From: Crocinitomicaceae bacterium
GTDB taxonomy: Bacteria; Bacteroidota; Bacteroidia; Flavobacteriales_D; Crocinitomicaceae
NCBI GenBank assembly: GCA_029251865.1
Contig: JAQXCN010000065.1
Span: forward strand, 1 to 45,075
Length of the DNA stretch: 45,075 bases
Direction of reading: 5' to 3'
Shown here: in pieces, positions 14,860 to 44,681 of the stretch
Layout of the letters: every line of letters starts with the position of its first letter
How positions within the stretch are numbered: position 1 is the stretch's first letter
The notes under the pieces: generated by a model
Seen by the model: the letters and a program-made list of their open reading frames with translations, nothing else
Told to the model about the DNA's origin: nothing
Database searches by the model: none
Program-made: the position numbers and the translations under genes

Positions 14860-15459
14860 ATGCAAGAATTAAAAGAGAAAGTAAGTTACGCAGTAGGATT
14901 AAGTATTGCTGAAAGTTTAAAAAGCCAACAACTAGACGGGTTAAACCTAGATTTATTAAAAGATGGAATTCAGGACATCTTCGAACAAAGAGAGTTGAAA
15001 ATAAATCCACAAGAAGCTAATGGTTTGATTCAATCCTATTTGGAAGAGGCGAATTCAGCAGCCTTTGGAGAAAATAAAGAAAATGGAATCGCTTTTTTAG
15101 AGGGAAACAAAAATAAAGACGGTATATCATCGACTGAAAGTGGTCTACAATATGAAATTATACAAGAGGGCACAGGAAACAAACCAAGTGCGACTGATAC
15201 AGTAACTGTTCATTACCACGGAACACTTATTGATGGTACTGTTTTTGACAGCTCAACAGAAAGAGGAACACCAGCAAGTTTTGGTGTGAACCAAGTTATT
15301 CCAGGGTGGACCGAAGCACTTCAACTAATGTCTGTTGGATCAAAATTTAGACTTTACATTCCTCAAGAACTAGCCTATGGCGCTAATCCACACCCAGGTG
15401 GACCTATTCAACCATATAGCGCATTGATTTTTGACGTAGAATTGATTGAAATCAAATGA
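14860..15459 (+). CDS. FKBP-type peptidyl-prolyl cis-trans isomerase (no signal peptide)
   Basis: 199 residues from ATG 14860; an in-frame TTG at 14821 lies within the promoter region. An N-terminal FKBP_N helical dimerisation domain (about 5-75, KVSYAVGLSIAESLKSQQ) is joined to a C-terminal FKBP domain (about 90-199): VTVHYHGTLIDGTVFDSS, GVNQVIPGWTEALQLM and YIPQELAYGANPHPGG. The active-site aromatic and hydrophobic residues look intact. Closest in design to MIP/FkpA/FklB. Lacking a signal peptide, it should be cytoplasmic, unlike its tandem neighbour. It overlaps the next gene by four bases (ATGA). It assists proline-limited folding. Confidence 0.92.
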   Translation: MQELKEKVSYAVGLSIAESLKSQQLDGLNLDLLKDGIQDIFEQRELKINPQEANGLIQSYLEEANSAAFGENKENGIAFLEGNKNKDGISSTESGLQYEIIQEGTGNKPSATDTVTVHYHGTLIDGTVFDSSTERGTPASFGVNQVIPGWTEALQLMSVGSKFRLYIPQELAYGANPHPGGPIQPYSALIFDVELIEIK

Positions 15460-16412
15460 AAAAACTAATTGTTTTATTCTCGGGTGTTTTTCTATTAGGA
15501 TGCGGCAGTGATGCGACTGTATCCAGTCAGCAAGTCGTTTCCAAAACAATGACTGACATCAGTTACAACGAGAGTCAGGTGAAATTAAGTTCTGAAACTG
15601 ACAGTATTTCATACATACTTGGCCTTGAAATGTCAAAGCCGTTTCTACAAGATTCTGTTTTCTCAAACCTAAATAGAGATTTAGTTTCACAAGGTTTTGC
15701 AGAAGGAACCGAGGCTTATTCATTTGATTCATGCCAACAGGTCGTTCAGTCCTATGTATCTTCGCAAGATTTAAGAAAAGACAAAGCGTTTGCCGAACAA
15801 TGCGCTATTAGCATGGGTCGCATCCAAAAAAGTGGAATTGTTAAAACCTTCTCAGACATGGGTGCTATGGATATTTTAAACCTCAGCGTTGTCACAAATG
15901 GTTTTAAGGATGGTCTCAGTTTGAAAAATGTATTTAAGGATGATTCATCGAGCGTTAATATCCTCTTTGCAGAACTACGTACTAAAATGGACGCTAAATA
16001 CAAAGCATCAATTGAATCTACAGAAAAAGAAGGCCTTAATTTCCTAAAGCAGAATAAAAGCAAAAAAGGAGTTAAAACAACTCTTTCAGGGCTTCAGTAC
16101 AAAGTAATCAGAAAAGGAAAAGGAATGAATCCGTCGGCGAGTTCGCGCGTTCGTGTAAATTATAAAGGCTCATTGCTATCCGGAGAAGTATTCGACAGTT
16201 CATATGAGCGGGGTACACCAACTGAATTTGGATTGAATCAAGTCATTCCTGGATGGACTGAAGGAATTCAACTTATGAAACCAGGTAGTAAATTTGTATT
16301 CTACATTCCACAAGAATTAGCCTATGGCTCAAACCCAGATCCAAGGAGCGGTATAAAACCATATAGTCTTCTTATATTTGAAGTAGAACTTTTGGAAATA
16401 CTAAACCCATGA
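15456..16412 (+). CDS. FKBP-type peptidyl-prolyl isomerase lipoprotein
   Basis: 318 residues. The N-terminus MKKLIVLFSGVFLLGC ends in a lipobox Cys16, so it is an envelope lipoprotein. After this come two segments that each resemble FKBP_N: about 47-115 (SISYILGLEMSKPFL) and about 123-200 (CAISMGRIQKSG). A C-terminal FKBP domain follows (about 208-316, VRVNYKGSLLSGEVFDSS, LNQVIPGWTEGIQLM, YIPQELAYGSNPDP). The FKBP domain is very similar to that of the preceding gene, a tandem duplication. Likely role: folding of periplasmic or outer-membrane proteins. It overlaps both neighbours by four bases, so the three genes form one coupled operon. Confidence 0.92.
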   Translation: MKKLIVLFSGVFLLGCGSDATVSSQQVVSKTMTDISYNESQVKLSSETDSISYILGLEMSKPFLQDSVFSNLNRDLVSQGFAEGTEAYSFDSCQQVVQSYVSSQDLRKDKAFAEQCAISMGRIQKSGIVKTFSDMGAMDILNLSVVTNGFKDGLSLKNVFKDDSSSVNILFAELRTKMDAKYKASIESTEKEGLNFLKQNKSKKGVKTTLSGLQYKVIRKGKGMNPSASSRVRVNYKGSLLSGEVFDSSYERGTPTEFGLNQVIPGWTEGIQLMKPGSKFVFYIPQELAYGSNPDPRSGIKPYSLLIFEVELLEILNP

Positions 16413-35295: not shown

Positions 35296-35303
35296 TATTT
35301 TTG
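35296..35303 (+). promoter_or_regulatory. -7 box of the LpxD-like gene
   Basis: TATTTTTG, an exact TAnnTTTG, ends 12 bases before ATG 35316. The in-frame TTG at 35301 lies within it and is not a likely start. Confidence 0.5.
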
Positions 35304-35315
35304 ATAAAACGTGGC

Positions 35316-36227
35316 ATGAAATTTAAAACACCTGTTCCTCTAAAGAAAATCACAGACCAAATAAATGCTGTTTTTATTGGACCTGAAAACCACTTGGTAC
35401 TTGGTATAAGTGAATTAAATGTTGCAGAAAATGGCGACTTGATATTTGTTGACCATCCCAAGTACTTTGAGAAAGCTTTGCACTCGAAAGCCAATACGAT
35501 AATAATCAATGCTAGAATTGAGGCACCAGAAGGAAAAGCAATCATTACATCGGACAGGCCTTTTGAAGATTACAACCAACTTTGCAAATCTTATTTTCCG
35601 AAAACACCACTAAACGCGAATATTAACCAGCACATCCATCCGACAGCACGCATTGGAAATAACGTATCGCTTGGCAGTAATATTAAGATCGGTTCCGATT
35701 CTCAAATACTTCCAGGTGCTGTAATATCGAATAATGTTCACATCGGAGCAAATGTAATTATTGGTCCAAATACCGTAATTGGTCATGACGCATTCTACTA
35801 CAATTCTTCAAATTCAAAACATACCTTAATGCATACTATGGGCGGGGTAATTATTCACGATCATGTAGAAATCGGAGCAAATTCAACTGTTGATGCTGGA
35901 GTCTCTTCCCAAACTATTATTGGGGTAGGAACCAAAATCGATAATCTTGTACAAATTGGACACGATACGACAATCGGAAAGCATTGCATTATTGCCGCCT
36001 CTTCAGCCATTGCAGGTTGTGTTATCATAAAAAATCATGTTACGATTTGGGGACAAGTGGGGTGTACAAGTAAAGTCACTATTCAGGACAATGTCGTTGT
36101 CCTCGCGCAGTCAGGAGTCTCTAAAGATTTAGAGGCAGGAAAAACATACTTCGGCACACCATGTATAGAGGCCAAACAAAAATTCAGGGAACTAGCCGCT
36201 CTCAGAAATTTACCCAAGTATAGCTAA
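35316..36227 (+). CDS. LpxD-like UDP-3-O-acyl-glucosamine N-acyltransferase
   Basis: 303 residues. An N-terminal uridine-binding-like domain (about 1-95) is followed by a left-handed beta-helix of hexapeptide repeats (HPTARIGNNVSLGSNIKIG, ANVIIGPNTVIG). The putative catalytic His216 lies in LVQIGHDTTIGKH, equivalent in position to the LpxD active-site His. IGHDAFYYNSS and GGVIIHDHVEIGANSTVDAG are also typical. LpxD adds a hydroxyacyl chain to UDP-acyl-glucosamine in lipid A synthesis. Many Bacteroidota have a second LpxD-like paralogue, usually near efp; lpxC, fabZ and lpxA are missing here, so this could be that paralogue and the acceptor is uncertain. The PP2C phosphatase gene follows by eight bases. 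Confidence 0.85.
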   Translation: MKFKTPVPLKKITDQINAVFIGPENHLVLGISELNVAENGDLIFVDHPKYFEKALHSKANTIIINARIEAPEGKAIITSDRPFEDYNQLCKSYFPKTPLNANINQHIHPTARIGNNVSLGSNIKIGSDSQILPGAVISNNVHIGANVIIGPNTVIGHDAFYYNSSNSKHTLMHTMGGVIIHDHVEIGANSTVDAGVSSQTIIGVGTKIDNLVQIGHDTTIGKHCIIAASSAIAGCVIIKNHVTIWGQVGCTSKVTIQDNVVVLAQSGVSKDLEAGKTYFGTPCIEAKQKFRELAALRNLPKYS

Positions 36228-37465: not shown

Positions 37466-40400
37466 CTATCTGATAATATACATTTTACCTAACCCTTTGT
37501 GGAAATATTGATCTGCATCTGAATTCAATAAATCAATATCTTTCCCATCAATCTTAGCTTTAACTCGATACAGATAAACACCATTTGCTAGTAAATCACC
37601 AAATTGATCACGACCATCCCAGGAAAATTCGGTAATATTTCGACCGATCTGTATAGGACCAATTTCAACTTCCGTAATCTCTCTAACCACCCTACCGCTA
37701 ATCGTCATGATTTGAATTAAAACATCATCCGGTGCACGGTCTCCCGTAAGAGTAAATACAAATTTGGTAGCGGTTGAAAATGGATTAGGATAATTCATGA
37801 GATGCGTAATTCGGGACTCATGAATCACTTCAAAATCAATGGTATATTCGAAGTCGCCTGATACATTGCCCGACTTATCAGATCCTTGCACAAGTATATT
37901 ATACATACCATTTTGCTCAAAATATGCCGGGTACAATATTTTAAATTTATTCTGATTTTCATCGCCAGGAATCCAATTCATTACCATATTTCCTTGATTA
38001 TCAATAAATGGAATTCTCGAGGTTAATCCTGAAGGATCGGTAATATATATGCCAAACAATGAGGTGTCTGAATCACTATCAAGTAGCAGGTATGGATTTT
38101 CATCGTTCAAAGAAATATTGATTTCCGTAGTTGGAGCAACAATATCCTTGTTTAGGATATGAATACCGTTGAAGGTAACATCTAATATAGGATTAACTTC
38201 TTCTGCAATTACATTAAAAGGAATTTGTAAAATATTATTCAAATGAGAGAGTTCTAACTGATCTGTGACTGTGAGGGATGCATCGATGTAAGGATTTACC
38301 TCCATACAAAAGAAATTCGAGCCTACAAGATTCGTAGTCTCAAAATCAACAGTATCAGACAACACCCCGCCTATAATTAAAGAATCTTGTCGTTCGTATG
38401 GAATTAAATGTTTCTCTTGATTTTCGTCTAGGATAAAATATGAGACAAGAAGAGAATCCATGGAAACATCACTAATGTTTTTGATACCCATTGAGAACCG
38501 ACCTTTCTGGCCCTCTTGAATGGTATCCGAGGGCTCCCAAAACAAATTGGCTTTTCCTGAAATTGCTGCTTCCGGAATGGGGTCATAAAGCACATGCCAA
38601 AAATCCATTTGAGCGGGCGTCTGATCAACTGCATCTCTATACTTACTTATCAGTCTTATTTTCGGAACCGTATCAGCTCCTATAATTGAGTTCAATTCTA
38701 TAATAGAGTCGTGTGGTGTAAACAGAATATCCAAAGACGATTTATAATTCCCTAACGCATCCAAAAGCTGAACCTCGAGACGCGTCGAATCCGTTGTATT
38801 GTCCTCTAATGCATTTTGCTTCCAATGAACTGCATTCCATTTATTCACAGGACCTATGACTGGCGAGGATTCATATCCTATAATTTCAGAACCGGTAATG
38901 AGGGTGTCGAGATATATATCCTCGTTATTTTGAGAAAATAATTCAACAACAAAGTTTGGATCGCCTTTACGTGTTAAAAATATAAAAGGTCTGTTTGCCC
39001 GACCAGGAACTATACTATCAGAACCTAAATTAGAAAAGGTTGTATACAAATCAGGACTTATGGCGTCCCACAGGTCATATCGGGTTGTCATCGGTGTGTA
39101 AATAAGAATATAATTCCCATTCGGTATTTCATTTTCAACGAAATTTTGAAAAGCATCAATTTCAGTCTGGTTGTCTTGGTTAAAGGTGAAATATTTCATA
39201 ACCCTGTTTTCACAACCGCCATTATCATTATTGTTTCCAAAATTGTTGTTTGGATTTGAGACACTACCACTAGCGTTAACAAATCTTGTACCCCAAGATT
39301 CTAAAGATGATTTATCAACAACTGCAACATGAAATTTAGGAGTTACACTACAAATATTGTAATCCTGCATAGAACTATTAAGGAACCATGCATTATCATA
39401 GTGCCCTGGAGATTGACTTGTTGATTTACAAAGACATGAAATGTCAGCTTCGATAGGGACAAACTCTCTAAATTCGTTGGCAGTATTTAGAGCCACACCG
39501 TTAAACGAATTTCTTAAAAACTGCCCAACAACATCTTGACCCCAACCTCTTTTATTCGGTATATATTGAAATGATCTTCGTTTCCAAATCAATTCCTCAT
39601 CATCGAGTGCTATACGCCAAAAATAAACTAAACTATCCTCTAAAATAAGAGGTGCATTTAAACCGTTTGACTTCAACTTCCAATCTGAAGGATCGACCTG
39701 AAAAACTCCACCGGCGCCATTTACAACGACCAATCTTGCAAAGGAACTGGTAAAAGAAGTGCTCGTATCCAATTCAAACACATAAGAATTATTCGGCGCC
39801 AAAGGATCAATTGTCGATGCTTTTATCGAAATGGAGTCATTAGGAACAACAGCGAAAGGTTCGGGCCAAATAGGCTCAATACCATCAACGCTTATTAAAA
39901 AATTCTTCAGCACTTGATTGTTCACAATTTCGTCATATTGCTCTGTAATAAAATCAGGGCGATCAATCTTAACGTTAAACTGATTTACCCCAACACCTTG
40001 GCTTGGCTGAAAAGGTAATTTAATCGTAGTATCCTTTTCATAATCTAAACCTGAAATGTTATAAACATAATTAGAATCTATAAGTGACCCTGGAAAATCC
40101 CTATTAATGGTTAGATCAAAGGTTTCCGTTATAGATCGTCCAAGATTCCTGAATTTTACCTTAACTTCAATTGAGTCTGTAGCGAGTGAAAGATCATCTG
40201 GTCCAAACGAAACTCTTGATTCAGTGAGCTCTATCTCGGGGTATTCATGCCAATTCATACGAATCATAGGGTCACCATGGAGCGTCATTTGCATAAATGT
40301 AGATTCGGAAATTAAACTGGATGATGCGTCCATAACTGAATCTATGGTAGATTGGATATGTTCTCCAATCGTACCGCCATAATTTTGACGCGAAAATTGA

Positions 40401-42628
40401 TCATAAAAGTTACTTGAATATTCATTGAGCGACGAGGCGAAGCCGTAATTTAAAGTACCGATATAGGCAATTACGCCAGCATCTGGCGCAAGCACAAAAC
40501 TTTCTGAATTTGAAGTTGCATTATGAAATATATTTCCGTTATAGCAAGAATTGGCGAGAAGAACAGGGTACTTACCTTCATTATCCCAATTAACAGGATT
40601 GTCTAAATTGATATCAAAGCCGCTTTCAGAAGTGGAAAAATGACCAAAGAAATTCATTAATGAAACGCCTTGACTAATCCTATCCTTAATGTCTTGAATT
40701 TGACTCGGTCCTATTGGATTACCATTCTCTTTTGCAACAAGCTGAACCGTACCACCGAAATAATAATCTTCAGCCTTAGCTGCCATTCCATTTAAATATA
40801 TTTGTAACGATTGTTGCTCTTGATAGCCAGTTCCACCTGAAAAATGCAAAATATGTTTCTGCCAATCTTTTGTATTTGACGTATAGTCATCATTTTGATT
40901 TTGTTGCGCATCGTAAGCAATGATTTTCGTAAGGTAGTTTTGAAGTTCAATCTCAGTTTTAACAGATATTCGGCCAGTAGGAATAAGTGGTGTCCATTTA
41001 TCGGTACCGGGAAGATTAGAGGTAATACAGGCATCGCAAGAGGGCTGTCCAAAAGAGGGCACTAAAGAATTTTGGTAGGCCAAGGAGCTTGTTCTTGTGC
41101 CAGGACCTATGCTCGTTAAGGAGGTAATATTGGCCTCGCGAATCCCCTTTCCTATTAAAAATAACCCAACTGGCTTTTGAGTTGAGGCGTCATACATATG
41201 ATAAACAAATCGACGTATACCATTAATATGTTTTGGAATACCACCACCGTATTGCTGGTATAATTCTTTAATTTCCGCCTTTAAAACATTGTACCCGCCT
41301 CCATTTGAAGAAGTCCGATGTGCTTCGTATGCATTCACCGCCGCTTCAAGTTGAGCATTATATACAAATATTAATAAACTGTCAATATTATCCAATATCG
41401 AATAGTTAGTAAATAAACCATTCTCATTTACGGGCTGAATTGAAGTTACAGAGGTTATATTGTCCAAACTTTCAATAACCACATTTTGACGATCATTACC
41501 AACAGAATTTGGCACTAGGCATTTAAGGATTCCATTCGCACTTGAAACCAACAAAATGTGTGGCTCAGAACCAACTACGAGTGCAATCGGTAAATTTAAA
41601 TTACTGTTTTGAATATCTATTCGAGACTTTGCATCCGAAGTATTGATCACTTCAAAGTCCATTTGCTCATAATTTTCAAAGTTTAAATTCCGCGGGAATT
41701 TAAAGGACCAATAATTTATAGATTCATAATCTGTGGCAACATTTAAGTCTCCAATTATGGATACTTTGAAATTCGCAGATGAATTGGAAGATACGATGTT
41801 AGTCGGAAAAGAACCATTCACAAACACACTCTTGTAACCTGTAAATATCGAATCCGTAAGTACATAACTGCTTTCACCAATGGTATGTCGCGTATGGTGG
41901 TTTCCCGAACCAGAGGAGGCCTCTAAAGCATTTGATCTTCCTACTACAACCGATTCATAAGTAACCAATGGAGCATTCACATCCTGATAAATGTTATTAA
42001 ATATGAGGGAATTAAAATCCCAAGTATATCCTGAATTTCCGTTTTTCGGTGCACTTCCCCAGCCTTCACCTGGCATGTAAAAGGAGCTAGAAGCATCAGA
42101 GGATTTTTCACCCTCATTGTAACTACTCGAATAAAAATTAAATTCCTCTTCAATCACAAAGTCAGTTGGTGTATAATTTTCAAAATCGTTGGCTGTTTCG
42201 ACCTCAAACCTCAAGTTTTCATTTGAGGAATTCCATGTCAAGAAATACTGTAGGGTATCATTATAAAGACTGTATCTCGGGTTACCTATCCAATCGGGAT
42301 CGTCATACAAAGTGGAGTCGAGCCATCCATCATTTGCTTCGGCATAAAAAAGAAGATAATCTCCACCATTTATAAAACCATCGTTATTATCTACGATATG
42401 AAGGGGGATTTCTTTTTCCTTGCCAAACAACTGGAAATTAGTCGAGTTAATAGTTTCCAATGGCACTCCAGCATTTACTAGAGCAGCATGCTCAATCTTG
42501 TGTATCCCCGTCTGAACTACAGGAAAAGCATAATAGCGTTGGTCGTAAGAAATCCACTCATTGCCGTATGTCTGTGCCGAAAGTTGGGCACTCATTATTG
42601 ACAATAAAAAAATCAGCATCAATCTCAT
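37466..42628 (-). CDS. porU2: PorU2-type T9SS sortase-like C25 peptidase
   Basis: 1720 residues. Signal peptide (MRLMLIFLLSIMSAQLSAQ), then an N-terminal domain opening YGNEWISYDQRYYAFPVVQTGIHKI as in PorU proteins. A gingipain-like C25 catalytic domain covers about 430-810. The predicted dyad is His663 in NFFGHFSTSESG and Cys695 in LLANSCYNGNIF. The long remainder has Ig-like modules (GDPMIRMNWHEYPEIELTE marks the transition). A C-terminal FlgD/T9SS-sorting-like domain follows (about 1610-1720, NYPNPFSTATKF, SWDGRDQFGDLLANGVYLYRV). Canonical PorU is about 1100-1300 residues and lacks this tail; the longer version encoded with PorV2 is known as PorU2. Role (inferred): cleaves and anchors sorting domains at the cell surface, or is itself a surface peptidase. 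It overlaps porV2 by four bases. Confidence 0.85.
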   Translation of the reverse strand: MRLMLIFLLSIMSAQLSAQTYGNEWISYDQRYYAFPVVQTGIHKIEHAALVNAGVPLETINSTNFQLFGKEKEIPLHIVDNNDGFINGGDYLLFYAEANDGWLDSTLYDDPDWIGNPRYSLYNDTLQYFLTWNSSNENLRFEVETANDFENYTPTDFVIEEEFNFYSSSYNEGEKSSDASSSFYMPGEGWGSAPKNGNSGYTWDFNSLIFNNIYQDVNAPLVTYESVVVGRSNALEASSGSGNHHTRHTIGESSYVLTDSIFTGYKSVFVNGSFPTNIVSSNSSANFKVSIIGDLNVATDYESINYWSFKFPRNLNFENYEQMDFEVINTSDAKSRIDIQNSNLNLPIALVVGSEPHILLVSSANGILKCLVPNSVGNDRQNVVIESLDNITSVTSIQPVNENGLFTNYSILDNIDSLLIFVYNAQLEAAVNAYEAHRTSSNGGGYNVLKAEIKELYQQYGGGIPKHINGIRRFVYHMYDASTQKPVGLFLIGKGIREANITSLTSIGPGTRTSSLAYQNSLVPSFGQPSCDACITSNLPGTDKWTPLIPTGRISVKTEIELQNYLTKIIAYDAQQNQNDDYTSNTKDWQKHILHFSGGTGYQEQQSLQIYLNGMAAKAEDYYFGGTVQLVAKENGNPIGPSQIQDIKDRISQGVSLMNFFGHFSTSESGFDINLDNPVNWDNEGKYPVLLANSCYNGNIFHNATSNSESFVLAPDAGVIAYIGTLNYGFASSLNEYSSNFYDQFSRQNYGGTIGEHIQSTIDSVMDASSSLISESTFMQMTLHGDPMIRMNWHEYPEIELTESRVSFGPDDLSLATDSIEVKVKFRNLGRSITETFDLTINRDFPGSLIDSNYVYNISGLDYEKDTTIKLPFQPSQGVGVNQFNVKIDRPDFITEQYDEIVNNQVLKNFLISVDGIEPIWPEPFAVVPNDSISIKASTIDPLAPNNSYVFELDTSTSFTSSFARLVVVNGAGGVFQVDPSDWKLKSNGLNAPLILEDSLVYFWRIALDDEELIWKRRSFQYIPNKRGWGQDVVGQFLRNSFNGVALNTANEFREFVPIEADISCLCKSTSQSPGHYDNAWFLNSSMQDYNICSVTPKFHVAVVDKSSLESWGTRFVNASGSVSNPNNNFGNNNDNGGCENRVMKYFTFNQDNQTEIDAFQNFVENEIPNGNYILIYTPMTTRYDLWDAISPDLYTTFSNLGSDSIVPGRANRPFIFLTRKGDPNFVVELFSQNNEDIYLDTLITGSEIIGYESSPVIGPVNKWNAVHWKQNALEDNTTDSTRLEVQLLDALGNYKSSLDILFTPHDSIIELNSIIGADTVPKIRLISKYRDAVDQTPAQMDFWHVLYDPIPEAAISGKANLFWEPSDTIQEGQKGRFSMGIKNISDVSMDSLLVSYFILDENQEKHLIPYERQDSLIIGGVLSDTVDFETTNLVGSNFFCMEVNPYIDASLTVTDQLELSHLNNILQIPFNVIAEEVNPILDVTFNGIHILNKDIVAPTTEINISLNDENPYLLLDSDSDTSLFGIYITDPSGLTSRIPFIDNQGNMVMNWIPGDENQNKFKILYPAYFEQNGMYNILVQGSDKSGNVSGDFEYTIDFEVIHESRITHLMNYPNPFSTATKFVFTLTGDRAPDDVLIQIMTISGRVVREITEVEIGPIQIGRNITEFSWDGRDQFGDLLANGVYLYRVKAKIDGKDIDLLNSDADQYFHKGLGKMYIIR

Positions 42629-43722
42629 TTCTCCGCATTTTTAGGCTTAGCCAACCTTAATTTAATTGAAAAGATATGAGTGTAATAATTGGCATCACTT
42701 GCGCCAAGTCGTGTGAACGCATAATCCAACGAAAATCCTTTAAAACCAACGCCTAAACCTAAATTTGGTTGCATACCCCAGTATTGAGACTCATCAATAT
42801 TTGAAAATTGTTGAATGCTTGAAATTCCTCCCCGAACTTGAACGAGTTCTTTGAAGCCTATTTTAACCCCGAAATGAGGATCTAGCGAAAAAGGATTCAT
42901 TTTTATTAAGGTATTCCGCCTACCGTCTGTGGTAATATCAATATCGAGCTCTCCTCCCGCATAAATGCCTTTTGAGCCAAGACCGTATCTTGTACTTGCC
43001 GCTAAGATTAGTCTTGGTAACGTTATTTCTAGTCCATTTTCAGGAATCTCATTACCCGTCTGTAAAAAAACATTTTGCGTTGATTCATCTAAAGTAAAAA
43101 CCCAAGCATTAAAGGTAGAAGAAATGTCTCTTGCCATGACCCCCAAAGAAAGATGCTCATTGCGTTTGTATTTTAGACCTAAGTCAAGACCAAAACCCCA
43201 AGACTTGGCAAAGTCACCTACCTGTCGATAAATAACTTTAGCGCTACCTCCAAGGCTTAAACCTGGAATCTTTAAAGTTCTGGCATAACTACCGATAAAA
43301 GCATAATCACCTGCAGAAAACGAGCTGATATTGTCGTAATTAATAGCACCGTTATTATCTATAAGCTGTGTCGTATTGGGAATATCGTCTACTCCAAATC
43401 GAATAAAACCAAGTCCTAAAGCACTTTTATCATCAATAGCGTGAGCAACAGCTAAATAATCGTACTTCGCAATACCAGCAAAGTACTCGGAGTGCATAAA
43501 TGACACCTCTGCCCATTTCTTAACGCCAACCAAACCTGCTGGATTCCAATATAATGCGTTTGCGTCGTCTACATCAGCAACCACCGCATTCCCCATACCA
43601 TAAGCCTCAGCACCAACGCCAAGACTAAGAAATTCATTGGAATATTTGGGGGTGAGATTCTGGGCTTGAACCCCTAAACTGCTTAAGATTATGAATGTTA
43701 GACAAACAAGATTTTTTAACAT
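42625..43722 (-). CDS. porV2: PorV2-type outer-membrane protein (PorV/PorQ family)
   Basis: 365 residues. Signal peptide (MLKNLVCLTFIILSSLGVQA), then EFLSLGVGAEAYGMGNAVVADVDDANALYWNPAGL, the hallmark of PorV/FadL-like barrels. The rest is amphipathic beta strands ending in FSIKLRLAKPKNAEK. PorV binds T9SS C-terminal domains after they leave the translocon and hands them to the PorU sortase; PorV2 is the paralogue encoded with PorU2. Here porV2 precedes porU2 with an ATGA overlap, so the two are made together. No clear -7 box was seen upstream. Confidence 0.85.
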   Translation of the reverse strand: MLKNLVCLTFIILSSLGVQAQNLTPKYSNEFLSLGVGAEAYGMGNAVVADVDDANALYWNPAGLVGVKKWAEVSFMHSEYFAGIAKYDYLAVAHAIDDKSALGLGFIRFGVDDIPNTTQLIDNNGAINYDNISSFSAGDYAFIGSYARTLKIPGLSLGGSAKVIYRQVGDFAKSWGFGLDLGLKYKRNEHLSLGVMARDISSTFNAWVFTLDESTQNVFLQTGNEIPENGLEITLPRLILAASTRYGLGSKGIYAGGELDIDITTDGRRNTLIKMNPFSLDPHFGVKIGFKELVQVRGGISSIQQFSNIDESQYWGMQPNLGLGVGFKGFSLDYAFTRLGASDANYYTHIFSIKLRLAKPKNAEK

Positions 43723-43844: not shown

Positions 43845-44681
43845 ATGTTCAACTTAGCAAATATTCTAACAGGAATGAACCTTGTATGCGGGGTTATATC
43901 CATAATATTAAGTTTCTCTGGACAATTAGACTTGGCTGTTTATGCAATTTTCATTGGTGCTTTTTTTGATTTCTGTGATGGATTTGTCGCACGTAAACTA
44001 AACCTTGTGAGTGAGCTCGGGAAGCAACTCGACTCCCTATCTGACCTTGTAACTTTCGGTGTCGCACCTGGTATTTTAATGTTTATAATGATCATAATCG
44101 GTGTGAATCCAGACAATCTGATCGAAAGCCAATCAAGCAACACTCTGTTTTATGATTACTATGTTGTTCAAGAATTCTTCACATGGGTCAATGGTACTTT
44201 TTATGAAATCCCCAATACATTTGACGCGAGTATCAAATGGCTCCCATTTGTAGCTTTAATAGTACCCTTTTTTGCTTTGTTCCGTCTCGCGAAATTCAAT
44301 CTTGACAACTCACAATCGGTAAACTTCATTGGCTTCCCCACACCACTTGTTGCTATTCTTTTAAGCTTTTTTCCGCTCTACTTTTTTCTAAACATGCAGG
44401 ATTGGAATTCACAACCAGAACTTGTTTTTTGGATCTATGATTGTTATTCATTAGCGATAATTACTTTTGGCTTGTCCATTTTAATGCTAAGTCGAATTCC
44501 ATTAATGTCCCTTAAATTTCAAAAATTGCAAAGCAAGGAAAATCGGCTCAAAATTATTCTTATTCTCATCTCAGTGGTAAGTATTCCTTTTTTAAAGGTG
44601 CTGTCTATCCCATTTATTATAACTTTGTATTTCATAATTTCAATTTATCATTCAATCAAATTAAATCACAATGAAATTTAA
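43845..44681 (+). CDS. pssA: CDP-diacylglycerol-serine O-phosphatidyltransferase
   Basis: 278 residues, integral membrane protein with about eight TM helices. The CDP-alcohol phosphotransferase motif is complete: D42-x2-D45-G46-x2-A49-R50-x8-G59-x3-D63-x3-D67 (FDFCDGFVARKL and GKQLDSLSD). It transfers serine to CDP-diacylglycerol, the first step to phosphatidylethanolamine. The PSS subtype is chosen because the family with this length and N-terminal LANILTGMNLVCG is PssA. ATG 43845 is used; a weaker -7 box TATATTCG lies at 43791-43798. Its 3' end overlaps purS by 11 bases, so these two genes are coupled. Confidence 0.88.
   Translation: MFNLANILTGMNLVCGVISIILSFSGQLDLAVYAIFIGAFFDFCDGFVARKLNLVSELGKQLDSLSDLVTFGVAPGILMFIMIIIGVNPDNLIESQSSNTLFYDYYVVQEFFTWVNGTFYEIPNTFDASIKWLPFVALIVPFFALFRLAKFNLDNSQSVNFIGFPTPLVAILLSFFPLYFFLNMQDWNSQPELVFWIYDCYSLAIITFGLSILMLSRIPLMSLKFQKLQSKENRLKIILILISVVSIPFLKVLSIPFIITLYFIISIYHSIKLNHNEI

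Follow-up and report, generated by a model that had tools for sequence, protein, structure and literature searches.

PorU2 and PorV2 of a Crocinitomicaceae genome, a putative second sortase pair of the type IX secretion system

What does a second gingipain-like protein do in a genome that already encodes the sortase of the type IX secretion system (T9SS)? The question is raised by 45,075 nucleotides from a Crocinitomicaceae bacterium (GenBank assembly GCA_029251865.1, contig JAQXCN010000065.1, positions 1 to 45,075; hereafter the window), in which two genes, porV2 and porU2, lie together on the minus strand:

42625..43722, minus strand: porV2, 365 amino acids (aa), outer-membrane barrel of the PorV/PorQ family
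37466..42628, minus strand: porU2, 1720 aa, C25-family protein

We put the probability at roughly 0.5 that PorU2 is a second C-terminal peptidase or transpeptidase held by PorV2, possibly with a glycan acceptor of its own.

The open reading frames (ORFs) and their overlap of 4 nt are as the initial annotation had them, and the family names it used are indeed established in NCBIfam, where both carry the label "putative": PorU2 passed the cut-off of NF052324 ("putative type IX secretion system sortase PorU2"; 682.6 bits, cut-off 450) and PorV2 that of NF052325 (474.6 bits, cut-off 325). PorU2 fell below the canonical PorU model NF033707 (184.7 bits, cut-off 420). PorV2 passed the PorV/PorQ family model NF033709 (PorV_fam; 102.2 bits, cut-off 90) and has a PorU-type gene beside it, thus resembling PorV and PorQ, the barrels that hold PorU and PorZ, but it differs from them in remaining below both specific cut-offs (PorV, NF033710, 37.6 bits for 250; PorQ, 74.9 for 220). 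The closest named relative of PorU2 is that of a Flavobacteriales metagenome-assembled genome (L131; 74% identity; nonsynonymous difference pN 0.17, synonymous difference pS 0.79), and many Crocinitomicaceae and other Flavobacteriales hold close relatives. Cultured species with a PorU2 locus include Crocinitomix algicola (L152) and Taishania pollutisoli (L146). In the open papers the two names led to unrelated work, and none on the pair was among those listed for related terms. As far as could be found, the window pair is an ordinary member, with no difference seen, of a named and apparently uncharacterised family.

PorU2 beside the canonical sortase

Is PorU2 simply the main sortase of this organism? 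The source genome (2.38 Mb, 86 contigs, 100% complete) holds two C25 proteins, the window PorU2 and a canonical PorU on contig C9 (C25 match 2.5e-102; 1240 bits with the PorU model), which is adjoined by a canonical PorV (388.8 bits, cut-off 250). PorQ is on C77 (267.3 bits, cut-off 220) and sprA on C4, C54 carries a GldM-like gene (100.0 bits, below its cut-off of 180), and the genome has 85 matches to the type A C-terminal domain (CTD). The 21 window proteins scanned with family models, from 62 window ORFs, include no T9SS gene besides the pair, in agreement with the initial annotation. Since the canonical porU-porV pair, porQ and sprA all lie on other contigs, PorU2 is not the main sortase, and we rejected that possibility.

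The initial annotation set PorU2 apart from the canonical sortase by its greater length and by a sorting-like tail of its own. The length difference holds (1720 aa versus an open frame of 1289 aa). The tail does not: the canonical PorU of this genome also ends in a FlgD-type tail (NYPNPF...FWDGKDNYGDQLAKGVYIYRV), which exceeds the TIGR04183 cut-off of 23 with 26.2 bits where PorU2 reaches just 20.9. In the relevant passages of published work, PorU and PorZ of Porphyromonas gingivalis retain an uncleaved CTD (PMC10202324, PMC11285876; for PorU, PMC11285876). Because such a tail is found on canonical PorU both here and in P. gingivalis, it does not distinguish PorU2 and was dropped as its hallmark. 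The true differences are the domains inserted in the C-terminal part, with 929 residues after the C25 domain versus 362 in this genome's PorU (about 570 extra), and the partner: PorU pairs with PorV, whereas PorU2 pairs with PorV2, whose gene comes first.

The catalytic site was then compared, at these codons:

40640..40642, minus strand: catalytic His663, invariant, after a beta strand in the model
40544..40546, minus strand: catalytic Cys695, invariant, aligned with the Cys of ITATC (PorU, 6za2) and VAC (RgpB)

Both residues were kept in 28 of 28 rows of one alignment (A1), in 43 of 43 PorU2 rows from the window and the genome sample (the canonical PorU rows L074, L076, L077 and L080 being left out of that comparison) and in all 65 non-redundant rows derived from 73 full-length relatives in named records. 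In the predicted model His663 and Cys695 both follow beta strands, as expected for the gingipain clan. In a profile search they fell on the YAGHGG His and the ITATC Cys of P. gingivalis PorU and on the corresponding pair of RgpB. By hand count the aligned PorU Cys has PDB-chain index 688, which would fit C690 if two residues are absent at the chain start; C690A is used as the catalytic mutant of P. gingivalis PorU in a passage of PMC5562754. Thus, the predicted dyad stood up to alignment and to the predicted fold alike, and loss of the dyad was rejected.

The following domains were delimited in PorU2:

42575..42628, minus strand: residues about 1-18, probable signal peptide, read by eye from the translation
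41384..42571, minus strand: residues about 20-415, PorU-like N-terminal beta-rich region (AlphaFold model, alignment to 6za2)
40256..41371, minus strand: residues 420-791, peptidase C25 domain (Pfam 173.4 bits; fold match to RgpB, 1cvr)
39914..40237, minus strand: residues about 798-905, CARDB-like immunoglobulin-like (Ig) domain (CARDB 3idu, Z 10.1)
38885..39454, minus strand: residues about 1059-1248, FAM3/POMGnT1-stem-like domain (5ggj, Z 17.8)
38201..38590, minus strand: residues about 1347-1476, second CARDB-like domain (3idu, Z 12.3)
37469..37792, minus strand: residues 1613-1720, C-terminal FlgD/type-A-like domain (NYPNPF...SWDGRDQFG...; TIGR04183, FlgD_ig)

AlphaFold models were made of residues 20-905 (predicted local distance difference test, pLDDT, 90.5) and 893-1720 (pLDDT 87.4, predicted template modelling score 0.62), the latter a predicted chain of domains. 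The first model matched the gingipains RgpB (1cvr; Z 37.6, 2.9 A over 327 residues) and Kgp (Z 32.7), from which PorU2 differs by its 17 percent identity and its PorU-type N-domain and architecture. P. gingivalis PorU (6za2) matched residues 1-780 of the model (Z 19.7, root-mean-square deviation (rmsd) 6.5 over 587), and its residues 935-1157 matched the last two PorU2 domains (Z 10.0, rmsd 12.8 over 206), an rmsd so large that the mutual placing of these domains differs from that in PorU. PorU2 is thus like PorU in its N-domain, the C25 domain with its His/Cys dyad, the last Ig domain and the FlgD-type CTD, and unlike it in the long stretch after C25 with the FAM3-like domain. The FlgD-type C-terminus was correctly recognised at the outset, FlgD_ig being found in 28 of 28 members and the fold matching the end of PorU; Pfam CARDB occurs somewhere in 17 of the 28. 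A phmmer search of PorU2 against PDB sequences matched FlgD alone, and Foldseek with the C-terminal half returned mostly complement-like Ig chains at TM 0.1-0.2, which we judged meaningless.

Residues about 1059-1248 matched the stem of POMGnT1 (5ggj) in VIA-align over 144 residues at 2.1 A, and the same region matched FAM3C (ILEI; Z 15.0) and FAM3B (Z 14.3), all above unrelated rows. Pfam ILEI scored 20.1 bits on the window PorU2, below its cut-off of 27, and matched 10 of 28 PorU2 proteins (best 3.9e-15); a FAM3-like profile matched 33 of 43 (E 1.1e-5 or better) and none of 20 canonical PorU proteins. Five of the ten without a match are shorter (1080-1518 aa; L036, L037, L039, L040, L044) and five are long and from other classes (L058, L059, L068, L069, L071). 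Three of the short ones (L036, L039, L044; 1080-1124 aa) come from genomes that have no PorV2 over cut-off. In passages of PMC9802357, FAM3C binds sugars and POMGnT1 contacts N-acetylglucosamine through Arg129, Asp179 and Arg207. No counterpart of Asp179 or Arg207 was read in the PorU2 profile, by eye and from a weak FAM3C alignment (E 0.053-0.97), the residues placed there being different, so that sugar binding by this domain is a guess from its fold.

PorU2 also occurs in altered forms. Second copies are present in G126 (L049 4943-9847) and G091 (L047 4958-9751), two genomes that lack PorU; the C-terminus of the G126 copy is a strong type A CTD match (59.7 bits), and neither copy has a PorU-type tail. 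In locus L168 (9001-14130) two abutting ORFs, of 562 aa and 1146 aa, follow porV2 and together make up a split PorU2.

Phylogeny, partner and distribution

How is PorU2 related to PorU? A tree of 52 PorU2 and 20 PorU rows separated the PorU group with support 100, and FastTree with 21 PorU rows again gave PorU as one group (support 1.0). Sampled PorU2 proteins over cut-off and those at 300-450 bits fell on the same side of the tree, with PorU opposite. We counted PorU2 and PorU2-like proteins together, at 300 bits or more, among 392 Bacteroidota genomes: 34 hold PorU2 over cut-off and 63 more a protein at 300-450 bits, 97 in total. With PorU2 and PorU2-like proteins so common, what is called "sortase PorU" in a genome may not be one thing.

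In named records with more than 1.5 kb of upstream sequence, porV2 immediately precedes porU2 in 65 of 68 loci, with gaps between -26 and 195 and the window's value of -4 in 27. In the window and the stretches reaching further lineages, the same arrangement was found for 15 of 42 PorU2 genes.

PorU2 occurs almost exclusively in genomes with SprA. SprA was found in 319 genomes, among them 96 of the 97 with PorU2 and all 269 with PorU. The SprA-positive genomes comprise 87 with PorU and PorU2, 182 with PorU only, 9 with PorU2 only and 41 with neither; one PorU2 genome lacks SprA. Here absence of PorU was called at E 1e-100, and one genome so called (G232) may hold a split porU. Three of the nine genomes with PorU2 only (G007, G091, G126) are over the PorU2 cut-off, and the other six, genomes of family f36, have PorU2-like proteins. 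Median numbers of type A CTD matches were 10 without either protein (all 41 genomes), 34 with PorU2 only (all 9), 34.5 with PorU only (14 chosen genomes) and at least 63 with both (14 chosen genomes), from counts that differ by a few from the whole-genome figures of 85 and 86 given in this text. The excess of the PorU2-only genomes over those with neither protein (Mann-Whitney p 6.6e-4) is uncorrected for kinship, the nine coming from two families. By the thresholds used, the 41 SprA-positive genomes with neither protein still have 2 to at least 63 type A CTD matches.

Proposed function and its alternatives

What could the mechanism be? PorU2 would enter the periplasm by Sec and cross the outer membrane through its own type-A-like CTD, which would be retained. 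This domain would then attach PorU2 to the PorV2 barrel in the way that PorU is bound to PorV; PorU:PorV and PorQ:PorZ subcomplexes are described in the pertinent part of PMC5562754. At the surface, the Cys695/His663 site would cut the CTD of T9SS cargo, which would be released or handed to an acceptor. The FAM3-like domain probably touches a glycan and, as part of the same chain, perhaps assumes some of the acceptor-handling for which PorU relies on PorZ.

A second sortase is suggested by several lines of evidence: (i) PorU and PorU2 are two sides of one branch and have N-domain, C25, Ig and CTD folds in common; (ii) nine SprA-positive genomes hold a PorU2 or PorU2-like protein but no PorU, their median number of type A CTD matches being close to that of the chosen PorU-only genomes, and each of the 13 SprA-positive genomes of family f4 has one of the two proteins or both; and (iii) the dyad is unvarying, the pN/pS to the nearest relative is low, porV2 is consistently upstream in the named loci and SprA nearly always accompanies PorU2. 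The initial annotation had offered a second sortase as one of two options; it is still the best reading, neither of the refuting results named there having appeared, and only the contrast drawn from the tail has fallen.

Several observations weigh against it. The C-terminus of PorU2 stays just below two curated cut-offs (TIGR04183, as above, and FlgD_ig with 26.9 bits for 27). PorV2 is over cut-off without PorU2 in five genomes (G041, G021, G029, G037, G012), from 25 PorV2-positive ones among 50, so that PorV2 has another use; conversely, PorU2 is over cut-off in G249, G190, G355, G146 and G079, where no PorV2 reaches its own cut-off. In G045, the sole genome of the same order outside the genus that we examined, the two genes are not adjacent. 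In one genus, a genome with neither PorU nor PorU2 (G147) has 15 CTD matches, and four congeners with PorU2-like proteins have 16, 17, 18 and 35. PorU2 is also dispensable, as seen in G041, a species of the window's own genus. Its porV2 lies between the same flanking genes, 9 bases from a SpoIIE gene (L111 6331-8649), and no PorU2 was found elsewhere in a whole-genome survey; the locus lacks the LpxD-like gene too and is otherwise similar in gene order to the window. Because the relatives L131, L133 and L134 have porU2 at this place, loss in G041 is likelier than gain. G041 has 86 type A CTD matches versus 85 in the source genome, a comparison that gives no hint of cargo reserved for PorU2. 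Finally, the single-contig genome G269 (L042 3832-10062, L251 4397-8895) has PorV2, an intact PorU2 and GldK, L, M and N; SprA, PorV and PorU were not found over cut-off, and one CTD match is left, so a cargo sortase would have almost no substrate there. SprA was over cut-off in 0 of 17 genomes of this genus, whose other members were checked for SprA alone.

The alternative that survives best, which we consider unlikely though quite conceivable, is that PorU2 is a surface endopeptidase and not a sortase: exported through the T9SS and anchored by PorV2, it would cleave other surface proteins or their prodomains. The C25 fold and dyad are common to the gingipains, which are proteases, and both the unchanged CTD count of G041 and the retention of the pair in G269 with its single CTD match would suit such an enzyme. 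Against this, the N-domain, Ig and CTD architecture of PorU2 is that of PorU, on whose branch it forms the other side, and PorU-less genomes with many CTD proteins retain PorU2.

Could PorU2 instead be a redundant second copy, with the reaction, cargo and acceptor of PorU? In family f4 all 13 SprA-positive genomes hold PorU, PorU2 or both, all three states occurring and never neither, as redundancy would have it. The loss in G041 fits as well, as does G115 (2.0 Mb; L129 3704-9899), where porV2 is whole and the adjoining porU2 has decayed into four ORFs; together the two cases make PorV2 the more stable partner there. However, 87 of the 96 SprA-positive PorU2 genomes keep PorU too, which is long for mere redundancy, and the FAM3-like domain, absent from every PorU searched, and the separate barrel partner set PorU2 apart. 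We regard redundancy as improbable. Least probable in our view is a role outside T9SS cargo sorting, such as building or checking the outer-membrane surface, in which PorV2 would be the more ancient component: PorV2 without PorU2, the pair together with GldKLMN in G269, whose genus has no SprA over cut-off in 17 genomes, a pssA-like gene less than 1 kb from porV2 on the opposite strand in 49 of 71 loci with porV2, and an LpxD-like family near the pair in 21 of 82 loci speak for it, but SprA accompanies PorU2 almost without exception and the neighbouring pssA, SpoIIE and LpxD-like genes may have housekeeping roles.

A second type of sortase with a sugar-module-like domain and its own barrel, genomes with PorU2 only and a loss within one genus would make cargo C-termini comparable between genomes, and thus make testable how T9SS bacteria beyond the oral models anchor dozens of secreted proteins.

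Gene neighbourhood and a possible glycan acceptor

Might the second sortase serve a glycan of its own? Around 24 PorU2-like loci of other classes (278-456 bits), 147 neighbours included 21 matches to Glycos_transf_1, 16 to Glycos_transf_2, 9 to WecG/TagA and at least 4 to Polysacc_synt_2; these neighbours are 146 of 160 (some short, cut or overlapping ones omitted) plus L063:9852-11180. Set A7 alone, most of which (10 of 12 loci) was collected once the idea had been formed, gave 10, 10 and 6 matches to the first three families among 76 neighbours; set A6 consists mostly of the loci that first showed the glycosyltransferases. As a control, 53 neighbours of canonical PorU in nine of the same genomes (nine loci, a tenth, L233, being left out) gave 8 PorV, 1 Glyco_transf_5 and 1 Glyco_transf_9, and Glycos_transf_1, Glycos_transf_2 and WecG/TagA were not among the 25 top Pfam families listed for them, outside which rarer glycosyltransferases could lie. 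Fisher tests of the excess gave p 0.007 for Glycos_transf_1 and 0.03 for Glycos_transf_2, assuming one control match each, and 0.06 for WecG with zero control matches, the neighbours not being independent. In G+C-rich genomes the choice of ORFs may take wrong frames, which would dilute the PorU2-like and control sets alike. In genome G195, a PorV-family match lies within an open frame of 938 aa, possibly a fusion (G195:C1:3115425-3116306).

A more specific proposal is that PorU2 is a self-contained, glycan-directed sortase, whose FAM3-like domain would bind the acceptor sugar, the task of PorZ for PorU, and which would join cargo to a polysaccharide other than A-type lipopolysaccharide (A-LPS). 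The polysaccharide genes beside porU2 in several classes would then make this acceptor; exosortases are likewise located in exopolysaccharide clusters. We hold this proposal to be doubtful. In the window's own lineage no glycosyltransferase cluster was seen beside the pair, and no third gene clearly tied to sorting was found there among the pssA, SpoIIE and LpxD-like neighbours. Two of these lie near the pair in the window:

43845..44681, plus strand: divergent CDP-alcohol phosphatidyltransferase (pssA-like; Pfam 65.3 bits), outside the system
35301..36227: LpxD-like gene

Elsewhere in the window, an FKBP-type isomerase (15456-16412) barely exceeds the NCBIfam BamJ cut-off (102.7 versus 100).

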